Shown: piece by piece, positions 31,506 to 34,966 of the stretch | Layout: every line of letters begins with the position of its first letter | How positions within the stretch are numbered: the stretch's first letter is position 1 | Source of the DNA: Streptomyces roseirectus | GTDB taxonomy: Bacteria > Actinomycetota > Actinomycetes > Streptomycetales > Streptomycetaceae | Direction: 5' to 3' | Length of the DNA: 64,000 nucleotides | NCBI RefSeq assembly: GCF_014489635.1 | Contig: NZ_CP060828.1 | Span: forward strand, 7,444,001-7,508,000 | Made by a program: the position numbers and the translations under genes | The notes under the pieces: model-generated | What the model saw: the letters and a program-made list of their open reading frames with translations, nothing else | What the model was told of the DNA's origin: nothing | Databases searched by the model: none

Positions 31506-31568
31506 TCAGCCGCGACAGCGGTCGCCGCGACACCGGCCGAAGTCGAGGAAACGGCGCTTCGTGAACAT
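31506..31568 (-). CDS. cysteine-containing leader peptide of the nucleoside importer operon
   Basis: A 20-residue ORF, MFTKRRFLDFGRCRGDRCRG, preceded by a very strong GGAGGAGGAG site eight bases before ATG. It aligns without gaps to the end of the leader peptide before the ribose-type importer: basic residues, an aromatic residue, Val/Leu-Asp-Leu/Phe, Arg, five residues, Cys-Arg. Both cysteines use TGT, the rare Cys codon in such genomes. Similar -VDLxRxxxxxCR leader peptides precede cysteine and sulfur genes in Streptomyces and mycobacteria, where they act by attenuation. The function here is inferred. Confidence 0.75.
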   Translation of the reverse strand: MFTKRRFLDFGRCRGDRCRG

Positions 31569-31638
31569 CGGCACGTCTCCTCCTCCGTCTCGGCCAGTGG
31601 AATCGGTTGCGGACTGTACCACCCTGTTTCAGCCACCC

Positions 31639-31691
31639 GACAGACTGTCTCGAACTGTGGTTCGCCGAGGTCATGTACGGTGTCCGACACC
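31639..31691. promoter_or_regulatory. palindromes in the mtnA / importer divergent promoter region
   Basis: Three dyads lie between the leader peptide and mtnA: gacagactgtc (31639-31649, perfect), gaactgtggttc (31652-31663) and ggtgtccgacacc (31679-31691, perfect). The last overlaps the end of a possible mtnA -10 box, TACGGT (31676-31681). They are candidate regulator sites for both operons. Confidence 0.5.
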
Positions 31692-31730
31692 ACAGGACCC
31701 CCCCAGGCAGCACCCCAGGAGCGATCCCCT

Positions 31731-32762
31731 ATGTCCCAGGAACTGCGCGCCGTCGACTGGACCGGATCCGGCCTCGCGCTCATCGACCAGACCCTGCTGC
31801 CGCACCGCACCGAGACCGTGGACATCCGCGATGTGGACTCCCTCGTCGACGCGATCCAGCGCCTCGTCGTCCGGGGCGCTCCCGCGATCGGCGCGGCCGG
31901 CGCGTACGGGGTCGCCATCGCGCTGATCCAGGGCGAGCGCGAGGACTGGACCGACCTCCAGATCCTCCAGGCCGTCGCCCGCATCCGCGAGGCCCGCCCC
32001 ACCGCCGTCAACCTCATGGTGTGCGTCGACCGCGTCATGACCCGCTTCGCCGAGGGCCTGGACGCGGTCCTGGAAGAGGCGGCCGCCGTCCAGCGCGAGG
32101 ACATCGAGGCGAACCGCGCGATGGGCGTCCACGGAGCGGACTGGCTGATCAAGAAGGCCGGCGTCGACCGCCCGCTGCGCATCATCACCCACTGCAACGC
32201 CGGCGCGCTCGCCACGTCCGGCTGGGGCACCGCGCTCGGCGTCGTCCGCGAACTCCACGCGCGCGGCCGGGTCGAGGTCGTGTACGCCGACGAGACGCGC
32301 CCCCTGCTCCAGGGATCCCGGCTCACCGCCTGGGAGTTGGCCCAGGAGGGCATCCCGCACTACGTCCAGGCGGACGGCGCCGCCGCCGGCACCATCCTGC
32401 GCGGCGAGGTCGACGCGGCGATCGTCGGCGCCGACCGCATCGCGGCCAACGGCGACACCGCGAACAAGGTCGGCACGGTCGCCCTCGCCCTCGCCTGCGC
32501 CGACGCCGGCATCCCCTTCCTCGTCGCGGCCCCTACGACGACCGTCGACCTCGCCACGGCCACCGGCGACGACATCCACATCGAACTCCGGGGCGAGGAC
32601 GAGGTGTTGGAGTGGGGCGGCGTCCGCACCGCCCCCGCCGAGTCACGCGGCCACAACCCGGCCTTCGACGTCACCCCGGGCCGTCTCGTCACCGGACTCG
32701 TCACGGAACGCGGGGTGTTGGAGGTCTCGGCGGGCGAACTGCCGGGCGAGCGGCTGAAGTAG
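31731..32762 (+). CDS. mtnA: methylthioribose-1-phosphate isomerase
   Basis: 343 residues. Converts 5-methylthioribose-1-phosphate to methylthioribulose-1-phosphate in methionine salvage. The eIF2B-alpha-like fold has RGAPAIGAAGAYGVA near the N-terminus, the catalytic Cys in THCNAGALAT and the catalytic Asp in VGADRIAANGDTANKVGT. The ATG at 31731 follows AGGAG at about nine bases. It is transcribed away from the nucleoside importer operon and converges with mtnB. It is the meeting point of the phosphorylase and kinase branches encoded on either side. Confidence 0.95.
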   Translation: MSQELRAVDWTGSGLALIDQTLLPHRTETVDIRDVDSLVDAIQRLVVRGAPAIGAAGAYGVAIALIQGEREDWTDLQILQAVARIREARPTAVNLMVCVDRVMTRFAEGLDAVLEEAAAVQREDIEANRAMGVHGADWLIKKAGVDRPLRIITHCNAGALATSGWGTALGVVRELHARGRVEVVYADETRPLLQGSRLTAWELAQEGIPHYVQADGAAAGTILRGEVDAAIVGADRIAANGDTANKVGTVALALACADAGIPFLVAAPTTTVDLATATGDDIHIELRGEDEVLEWGGVRTAPAESRGHNPAFDVTPGRLVTGLVTERGVLEVSAGELPGERLK

Positions 32763-32784
32763 ACGGCAGGTCAGGAAAGAAAAG

Positions 32785-32808
32785 AAGGGGGACCACAGGG
32801 TCCCCCTT
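32785..32808. terminator. bidirectional terminator between mtnA and mtnB
   Basis: A 10-bp stem (32785-32794 with 32799-32808) and 4-nt loop. For the minus-strand mtnDCB transcript it is followed by a U-rich run (TCTTTTCTTTCC), a good intrinsic terminator. Confidence 0.85.
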
Positions 32809-33431: not shown

Positions 33432-34147
33432 GCGGTGCTCCCGGAAACGGTGATCTCGTCGAAGGACCCTGCCTGCGCATGATCCCCGACGCCTTGCGCG
33501 AAGTACGGCTCCCCGGGCCGCCGGACGCCGACGGCGTGCCAGCCGGCCTCTCGCGCCGCGTCCAGCTCGCCGGGCCGGTCGGAGAGGAAGAGGAGACGGG
33601 ACGGCTCGACGCCCGTCGCCGAGGCGATCCGGCGGTAGGACGCCGCCTCCTGCTTGGGCCCGGCGTTCTCCGTGTCGTAGAACCCCGAGACCAGCGAAGT
33701 CAGGTCACCCTCAGGGCTGTTGGTGAACCACGCCCGCTGCGCGGCCACCGACCCCGACGAGTAGACGTACAGCCGCACCCCGGCCGCGTGCCAGGCGCGC
33801 AACTGCGGGACGACGTCGGCGTAGAAGTGCGAGACGAGATCGCCCCGCGCGAAGCCCTCCGCCCAGACGATGCCCTGGAGGGTCTTCAGCGGGGTCGCCT
33901 TGCGGTCCTCGTCCAGCCAGGCGTTGAGCGTCTTCTCGATCGCGGCGGCATCGGCGTCAGGCTCGCCGGTCAGCTCCCGCACCTGCGCGATCGCCCGCGC
34001 GACCTCGGGCTCGTCCGCCCGCTGGGACAGCAGGTCCGCGAACCGGTCACGCGAGTACGGGTACAGGACGTCCACGACGAACCCCGTGGCGCTCGTGGTG
34101 CCCTCGATGTCGAGCACCACGGCGTCCACGGCATACCGGAGCGTCAC
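33428..34147 (-). CDS. mtnC: enolase-phosphatase (acireductone synthase)
   Basis: 239 residues, HAD superfamily, bifunctional enolisation and dephosphorylation giving acireductone. The nucleophile motif is [14 protein letters not shown] (DxEGTT is specific to MtnC), then [10 protein letters not shown] as motif II, and [15 protein letters not shown] as motif III. The GTG start overlaps the mtnD stop as GTGA and its own stop overlaps the mtnB start. Tight coupling ensures equal enzyme levels for the unstable intermediates. Confidence 0.95.
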
Positions 34148-34728
34148 GCGACGTACCCGGCGGCGATCGTGTCGTAGTCCGGGAAGCGGGAGGCGATCGG
34201 CGACCCGGTGAAGTTGCCGATCCAGCCGTCCTCCTCGTGGAAGAAGCGGATCGCGGTGAAGGACGGGCTGGTGCCCATGTCGAACCAGTGCGTGGTGCCG
34301 CGCGGGACGCCGAGCAGGTCGCCCTTCTCGCAGAACACGGCGTGGACCTCGCCGTTCACGTGCAGGTAGAAGATGCCGGAGCCGGAGACGAAGAAGCGGA
34401 CCTCGTCATCGTCGTCGTGCGTGTGCTCCTGGAGGAACTTCTCGCGGGCGGCCTTCGCCCTCGCCGGGAACTCCGGGTCGTCGCTGGGGTGCAGCCCGAG
34501 GACGTCGACCGTGGTGAAGCCCTCCTCCGCGTTCAGCTTCTCGATCTCCGGGCCGTACGCGGCGAACACGGTCTCGCTGTCCGCGTCGAAGGGGACGTCC
34601 TCGCGGATCGGCCACTGTTCGTAGCGCACGCCCAGCGGCTTCAGGGCCTCCGCGATCTCGGCGGGGTCGGAGGTCCGGCGGACGAGGGTGTCCGGGCCGG
34701 ACTCGGGCCAGGTGGTCAGGAGGGTCAT
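34144..34728 (-). CDS. mtnD: acireductone dioxygenase
   Basis: 194 residues, cupin. It oxidises acireductone to 2-keto-4-methylthiobutyrate and formate with Fe(II). The metal ligands are in [14 protein letters not shown] (His, His, Glu) and the fourth His in [11 protein letters not shown]. It is the first gene of mtnD-mtnC-mtnB. The ATG at 34728 has GGAG eight bases upstream. The 5' region holds a ccgggt/acccgg hairpin (34791-34811) and lies back to back with the leader peptide of the ribose-type importer. The final transaminase (MtnE) is not in the window. Confidence 0.94.
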
Positions 34729-34858
34729 GACAACAGCTCCAGGTCTGTCTGGTTTCTTCCGCTGGAAGCGTCGATTCGGTGATGGTAACGCCGGGTCCGA
34801 TGATCACCCGGTGTGACGTAGTCGTTGTCTCATTCCGTGAGAATCGCCTTTTACACCT

Positions 34859-34888
34859 TTGACGTTTGGCTGAAACCGTTCTCATGAT
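34859..34888 (+). promoter_or_regulatory. promoter of the ribose-type importer / mtnK operon
   Basis: TTGACG (34859-34864) and CATGAT (34883-34888) are 18 bases apart, predicting a start at or next to the ATG of the leader peptide (34895). The leader would then be translated from a leaderless end. Confidence 0.5.
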
Positions 34889-34894
34889 CTGGGT

Positions 34895-34966
34895 ATGAAG
34901 ACGCTGCTGCTCGTGCGGCGGCTGTACGTGGACTTGCTCCGGTCGACCACAGCCAGCTGTCGCTGA
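34895..34966 (+). CDS. cysteine-containing leader peptide of the ribose-type importer operon
   Basis: A 23-residue ORF ending RRLYVDLLRSTTASCR-stop. The penultimate Cys is written TGT. It aligns over 16 residues with KRRFLDFGRCRGDRCR of the other leader in the island: shared Arg, aromatic, aliphatic-Asp-hydrophobic, Arg and Cys-Arg. The ORF lies 111 bases before the solute-binding protein gene. The segment after its stop includes ccggagc (34973-34979), gctccggctcc (35018-35028) and the downstream ribosome site ggagcc (35067-35072), which can form alternative pairings. A sulfur-responsive attenuator is inferred. Confidence 0.78.
   Translation: MKTLLLVRRLYVDLLRSTTASCR

Follow-up and report, generated by a model that had tools for sequence, protein, structure and literature searches.

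Two probably related leader peptides, candidate cysteine sensors, precede the two import operons of a Streptomyces mtnA locus

Background

NF042934 (cis_reg_atten, "putative leader peptide") is the NCBIfam model closest to the peptides described here. Mycobacteria are said to carry leaderless polycysteine short open reading frames (ORFs) responsible for cysteine attenuation, reportedly described by Canestrari in 2020. According to PMC1262725, leader ORFs with Cys codons before the cys operons of mycobacteria and other bacteria had been predicted in 2005, and PMC9031893, PMC13236596 and PMC9094748 report that such ORFs act in Mycobacterium smegmatis. In Rhodobacterales the uORFC-8-2 motif before cysS, as presented in PMC8632094, is likewise an upstream ORF with Cys codons and a proposed attenuator. 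The present analysis concerns two short ORFs of Streptomyces roseirectus, one on each strand, located in a stretch of 64,000 nucleotides (positions 7444001-7508000 of a genome of 9.95 Mb in one contig; hereafter the window). One leader ORF precedes each of the two import operons that surround the methionine-salvage gene mtnA. They are called the plus leader and the minus leader according to their strand (Table 1).

Sampled NF042934 matches have the same motif, the same length, the same TGT sensor codon and a frequent place before sulfur genes. With the mycobacterial ORFs, for which PMC9031893, PMC13236596 and PMC9094748 propose translational attenuation, the two leaders share the Cys codons upstream of sulfur genes and, for the plus leader, a promoter geometry that would fit a leaderless start. 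Leaders with a run of Cys codons (L199 and L201; L-numbers are our locus labels) share the motif RR-x-VDL-C-R. However, where the mycobacterial ORFs have a Cys run, the plus leader has one Cys and the minus leader two separated ones, the genes behind them encode presumed importers of methylthio-compounds, and the minus leader has a Shine-Dalgarno sequence (GGAGG). The uORFC-8-2 motif, according to PMC8632094, has tandem Cys codons, dominated by UGC, and an intrinsic terminator, whereas the leaders of the window use UGU and no terminator was found between leader and gene.

Results

Each leader accompanies its own importer

Eighty mtnA loci were compared, in which the importer genes were placed by tblastn. 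The plus leader is present in all 56 loci having the binding-protein gene and in one of the 24 loci lacking it (L091, where the contig ends just after the leader). The minus leader motif occurs in 52 of the 80 loci, which correspond to 52 of the 61 loci with the BMP lipoprotein gene and to none of the 19 without it. Given these presence and absence counts, each leader tracks its importer and not the mtn genes. The nine BMP loci devoid of the minus leader are L030, L031, L049, L059, L096, L097, L098, L109 and the more distant L108.

Two side observations concern the loci themselves. Where the minus leader would stand, L096, L097, L098 and L109 carry another Cys-rich ORF (e.g. ...MCRCRRCSC, ...MCGCRRCSR), as though it had taken the place of the leader. 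L047 retains the leader in front of a plus operon that seems truncated, a partial match to mtnK following closely on the binding protein.

Coding evidence and start signals

The conserved rows include the window itself: 57 rows (56 loci plus the window) for the plus leader and 53 (52 loci plus the window) for the minus leader. Both tiny ORFs pointed out by the sequence-only reading are present and their frame is kept in relatives. For the minus ORF the ratio of nonsynonymous to synonymous polymorphism (pN/pS), computed on the 45 distinct sequences among the 53 rows, is lowest in the frame of the leader (0.37); the two alternative forward frames give 1.42 and 1.80, and the three antisense frames 1.21, 0.57 and 1.25. 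Its Asp is kept in 53/53 rows and many relatives carry two or three Cys codons. Among the 52 relatives the start, read by eye, is mostly an in-frame GTG just behind the GGAGG. The window leader may for this reason start at the GTG at 31574, which is a likelier start than the ATG at 31568.

The plus peptide is nearly invariant over the 57 rows, with the Asp kept in all of them. Its pN/pS is 0.27 in its own frame, a value too close to those of frame 1 (0.41) and of two antisense frames (0.43 and 0.39) to be retained as proof of the frame. The ratio is indecisive because the DNA itself is nearly invariant (20 distinct sequences among the 57 rows), and the coding case for this leader appears to rest on its match with the leader family. 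The promoter-like TTGACG-18-CATGAT is the sole pair of this kind found there (shuffles: 0.0, standard deviation 0.2). Since it is conserved in relatives and ends six bases before the ATG, the plus transcript probably begins at the leader ATG or next to it. The promoter spacer (34865-34882, TGGCTGAAA.CGTTC) is strongly conserved in the 57 rows, as if bound by a regulator. Leaderless-like geometry is common among the leaders: a -10-like site lies at the right distance in 56 of 96, where 10.2 were expected from shuffles; 8 of the others have a Shine-Dalgarno sequence only and 32 have neither.

Relationship to the NF042934 leader family

The plus peptide aligns to positions 1 to 19 of NF042934 and includes the R-x-H/Y-V-D-L-x-R-x5-C core, with an E-value of 9.5e-6 and a score of 25.1 bits (22.9 bits in the genome search), below the 27-bit cut-off. 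The minus peptide, which has F-L-D-F-G-R-C where other leaders have H-V-D-L-x-R, shows no match to this model and reaches the core solely through profile comparison: hhalign aligned 18 minus-type peptides with 11 NF042934-type leaders of the same genome, the plus leader included, over 20 columns and in register (probability 82.7, E 9.5e-6). The homology claimed by the sequence-only reading relied on a direct pairing of the two peptides over 16 residues. With 5 identities this pairing is weak alone, and it was rejected as stand-alone proof. The likeness nevertheless goes beyond chance because of the constraint on the minus frame, the near invariance of the plus peptide and the hhalign match, so that kinship of the two peptides is supported. 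Neither leader is counted as a member of NF042934. They are rather relatives that look built for the same job.

This leader family is present in 61/61 sampled Streptomycetaceae genomes and in 64 of the 79 genomes sampled in the class, and its Asp and Arg are invariant in the 11 leaders of the host genome. The regions of the ten other leaders of this genome were read and the proteins encoded by the next gene were scanned against NCBIfam at 1e-20 (for L116 the second gene, since the first had no match; for L117 the gene that follows the second of its leaders). A recognisable sulfur gene comes next in five of the ten regions: two alkanesulfonate-monooxygenase types, an SsuC-type permease, a 3-mercaptopyruvate-sulfurtransferase type and, as second gene, a cysteine synthase, which alone among the proteins behind the ten leaders exceeds a cut-off. 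A sixth leader precedes a gene of the nitrite/sulfite reductase family that is matched best by nitrite reductase models. One amino-acid/cystine-type permease, one flavin reductase and two proteins without NCBIfam match at this threshold complete the list. The idea that such peptides often precede sulfur genes is supported by these regions. Region L117 (genome positions 8064500-8074500) is peculiar in having a pair of leader-like ORFs, separated by about 1.2 kb, of which the first has no sensor Cys and the second precedes the permease gene of the amino-acid/cystine type.

A fixed TGT codon at the sensor position

All three Cys codons of the window leaders are TGT, a codon found 3 times against 22 for TGC in the 18 coding stretches counted in the window. 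This remark, already made from the sequence alone, is the most general part of the earlier observation. Of the Cys codons of the minus leader, the last is TGT in 53/53 rows, the first is TGT in 27 and TGC in 26, and the 16 additional scattered ones are all TGC. Among 72 distinct leaders from Streptomycetaceae genomes, plus leader included, the aligned Cys is TGT in every case, the search pattern itself demanding Asp, Arg and Cys, so that the count is conditional on Cys being present. The other Cys codons of these leaders are TGC 48 times and TGT 7 times (Fisher p 7e-28, a value that is too small as the leader sequences are related). The same is observed class-wide, with TGT at the aligned Cys in 26/26 leaders (15 family labels) and TGC 48, TGT 11 elsewhere. 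Both codon samples lean to high-scoring matches (the best-scoring loci plus 40 hand-picked from listed rows). Codons for Asp (57 GAC, 15 GAT) and Arg (five codons) vary across the 72 leaders. Usually the anticodon of tRNA-Cys is GCA, and UGU would then be read by wobble.

The 72 leaders derive from 81 loci after removal of four outside the pattern (leaving 77) and of five duplicates. Of the excluded four, L013 has no Cys at this position, in L016 it comes one residue further on, as TGT, while L174 and L193 end before it. In the latter two the motif is intact and the stop precedes the sensor Cys.

Complementary elements between the plus leader and its importer

Four short elements extend from the plus leader to the Shine-Dalgarno sequence of the importer gene. 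Exact complementarity of at least 6 bases is observed between elements 1 and 2 in 51/57 rows and between elements 2 and 3 in 46/57, and of at least 5 bases between elements 3 and 4 in 50/57. Among the 39 rows aligned, elements 1 and 2 pair 7/7 in all 39 and elements 2 and 3 in 29; the 39/39 is flattering, since L047, L090 and L106, devoid of element 2, are excluded from this alignment. GCTCCGG is found in 47/56 mid-spacers, against 19/56 for the next non-overlapping 7-mer. A coordinated change of elements 2, 3 and 4 is seen only in L039/L041. The sensor codon lies in the loop of the helix formed by elements 1 and 2, as it does in the classic attenuators. These conserved complementary elements, which reach the importer Shine-Dalgarno, suggest translational attenuation.

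No intrinsic terminator (G+C-rich hairpin followed by a U run) was found between leader and gene on either side, a search that did not cover Rho-dependent termination; the sole terminator-like site, at 34739-34752 on the plus strand, precedes the plus leader. Rfam gave no match over threshold in 30300-36200, to a riboswitch or otherwise, and one sub-threshold small RNA match inside a coding stretch.

Gene context

The closest relatives of the mtnA gene of the window are found in Streptomyces. This gene and the BMP operon are divergently transcribed, and the three minus-strand genes between mtnA and the plus operon are presumably mtnB-, mtnC- and mtnD-like. The plus operon begins 111 nucleotides 3' of the plus leader and includes mtnK, which places a sulfur-related operon directly downstream of this leader. 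For the operon of the minus leader the gene context points to a sulfur link, and it likewise suggests methylthio-compounds as substrates of the importers.

Table 1. Features of the two leader regions and of the neighbouring genes (positions in the window)
Feature	Position	Strand	Remarks
Plus leader ORF	34895..34966	+	peptide MKTLLLVRRLYVDLLRSTTASCR; no Shine-Dalgarno seen
Sensor Cys codon 22 of plus leader	34958..34960	+	TGT in 57/57 rows
Promoter-like TTGACG-18-CATGAT	34859..34888	+	ends six bases 5' of leader ATG (leaderless geometry)
Element 1, GCTCCGG	34936..34942	+	inside plus leader
Element 2, CCGGAGC	34973..34979	+	just 3' of leader stop; can pair with element 1 or 3
Element 3, GCTCCGG	35018..35024	+	spacer; can pair with element 2 or Shine-Dalgarno
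Element 4, CTGGAGC	35065..35071	+	Shine-Dalgarno of importer gene
Periplasmic-binding-protein gene, plus import operon gene 1	35078..36178	+	PF13407
Remaining plus import operon	36165..39952	+	ABC ATPase, permease, methylthioribose kinase mtnK (exceeds TIGR01767 cut-off)
Minus leader ORF	31506..31568	-	ATG at 31568, stop at 31506; peptide MFTKRRFLDFGRCRGDRCRG; Cys codons TGT, TGT
Minus leader peptide end		-	...KRRFLDFGRCRGDRCRG
Shine-Dalgarno-like GGAAGG of BMP lipoprotein gene (ATG at 31414)	31424..31429	-	sequence reading; GGAAGG in 50/53 rows
BMP/PnrA-like substrate-binding lipoprotein gene, minus import operon gene 1	30332..31414	-	Pfam PF02608
Remaining minus import operon	24837..30366	-	ABC ATPase, permease genes, PNP/uridine-phosphorylase family enzyme, deaminase-type amidohydrolase
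ABC ATPase of minus operon	28777-30366	-	
PNP/uridine-phosphorylase family enzyme of minus operon	inside ORF 26120-27169	-	
Deaminase-type amidohydrolase of minus operon	24837-26123	-	
mtnA, S-methyl-5-thioribose-1-phosphate isomerase	31731..32762	+	exceeds TIGR00512 cut-off

A further site was observed between mtnA and the BMP operon. The sequence at 31650-31664, TCGAACTGTGGTTCG, fits the Streptomyces LexA motif tCGAAC-N4-GNNCGa as given in PMC9380542. A GAAC-N4-GTTC-like site is present in 57/62 rows with BMP (window included; in L102 it lies elsewhere) and in 11/19 rows without. Since most of these sites also keep the central TGTG, another regulator is possible.

Discussion

We consider it moderately probable that the two ORFs are translated into cysteine-sensing leader peptides, that these belong to a single actinobacterial leader family and that each controls its own importer, the plus leader by means of a pairing switch. 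Cysteine sensing by the minus leader is suggested by its family and its codon. We infer translation, ribosome halting, the cysteine response, the pairing switch and the importer substrates as parts of the following scheme. The plus transcript would be leaderless, starting at or beside the ATG. With ample Cys-tRNA the ribosome would pass the single UGU and depart; element 1 would then pair with element 2, and element 3 with the importer Shine-Dalgarno, resulting in low translation. With scarce Cys-tRNA it would halt at the UGU in the loop, break the pairing of elements 1 and 2 and let element 2 pair with element 3, which would free the importer Shine-Dalgarno. Imported methylthioribose, with the help of MtnK, and methylthio-nucleoside, through the BMP operon, the deaminase and the phosphorylase, would both feed MtnA. 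The proposed direction, low cysteine inducing uptake, is the one argued by the sequence-only reading; like translation and the cysteine response, it is borrowed from the mycobacterial precedent.

Several observations weigh against this explanation. At the plus leader, shuffled spacers equal the complementarity of elements 3 and 4 in most rows, which leaves the masking helix at chance level per sequence. Some relatives lack elements (element 3 in L030 and L031; 2 and 3 in L047; 2 in L090 and L106), RNAalifold shows double changes in 0/11 pairs and the folding z-score of the region is just -1.76. In an energy model the Shine-Dalgarno is more open with a ribosome stalled at Cys22 than after termination in 44/57 rows, but the median gain is just 0.39 kcal/mol, the comparison with free RNA favours the stall in 35/57 rows (p 0.057), and a control stall placed at codon 12 has a slightly larger effect than the one at Cys22. 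For the window sequence the model goes in the wrong direction, with a cost of 4.5 kcal/mol under the stall and of 4.1 for free RNA. This thermodynamic model was rejected as weak, not specific of Cys22 and contrary in the window itself. A sensor hairpin as a family-wide trait was also rejected (96 leaders, 4.54 observed against 4.61 for shuffles).

On the minus side no conserved anti-Shine-Dalgarno was identified in the spacer of the 53 rows, 3 of which have no recognised Shine-Dalgarno. The candidates were rejected, being just likenesses of 4-7 bases, often a CTTCC inside the leader. The window leader folds no better than shuffles (z +1.17). A GCGCTC/GAGCGC hairpin 5' of the Shine-Dalgarno is partly conserved and leaves the Shine-Dalgarno uncovered; consensus hairpins are weak, with a double change in 3/17 consensus pairs (20 of 50 usable minus rows). 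Moreover L030 and L031, the closest to the window by MtnA, have the leader deleted, and L049 and L059 keep a degenerate copy of it. Finally, the plus peptide was found in 2 of 101 Streptomycetaceae genomes (E <= 1e-4), while the minus-type peptide gives E 6.3e-6 in its own genome and at best 0.037 in others; both leaders seem limited to part of the genus.

Our confidence is held lower because pairing of elements 3 and 4 is at chance and the energies of the window go in the wrong direction. The attenuator role claimed earlier is suggested by the conserved elements 1 to 3 of the plus leader; the masking helix is at chance level, the energies support it weakly, and no such anatomy was identified at the minus leader. 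Altogether the earlier observation is confirmed and its interpretation partly supported.

It is unlikely, though worth serious consideration, that the nascent peptide (R-x-H-V-D-L-x-R...C) acts as an arrest peptide, the Cys codon being just one part of the signal. The invariance of Asp and Arg in the host genome, and of Asp in all plus and minus rows, would be expected of such a peptide, as would the variable codons of these two residues over the 72 leaders, though the search pattern itself demanded both residues. A single Cys codon also seems a weak halting signal, and the sensor hairpin is not family-wide. However, the identity of the sensor codon is fixed, which a pure peptide signal does not need, and leaders with Cys runs exist (L199, L201).

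Quite unlikely in our view is regulation by the plus leader alone, the minus ORF being a relic, or else an ORF that serves coupling and senses no cysteine. The two deletions, the two degenerate copies and the lack of a masking anatomy speak in its favour, but the in-frame pN/pS, the invariable TGT of the last Cys, the Cys-rich ORFs at the same place in L096, L097, L098 and L109 and the absence of the leader from all 19 loci without BMP are at odds with a relic. That two chance short ORFs happen to look alike, as the 5/16 pairwise identity might suggest, is scarcely credible, being contradicted by the frame constraint, the importer linkage and the profile match.

Significance

In open-licence literature we found no paper on a UGU rule or on leaders before methionine-salvage importers. 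A broader proposal, which we hold to be evenly poised between right and wrong, is that leaders of this actinobacterial family sense cysteine at a single fixed position and through a single obligatory codon, UGU, which these genomes seldom use. The choice of codon would then belong to the sensor, and with the two leaders of the window the cysteine-sensing network would reach the import of methylthio-compounds. If the explanation favoured here is true, the uptake of methylthioribose and of methylthio-nucleoside would be coupled to the cysteine supply by the ribosome, twice per locus and by two diverged leaders, in a clade of Streptomyces. A fixed UGU at one leader position would moreover offer a clean test of single-codon sensing of aminoacyl-tRNA supply.

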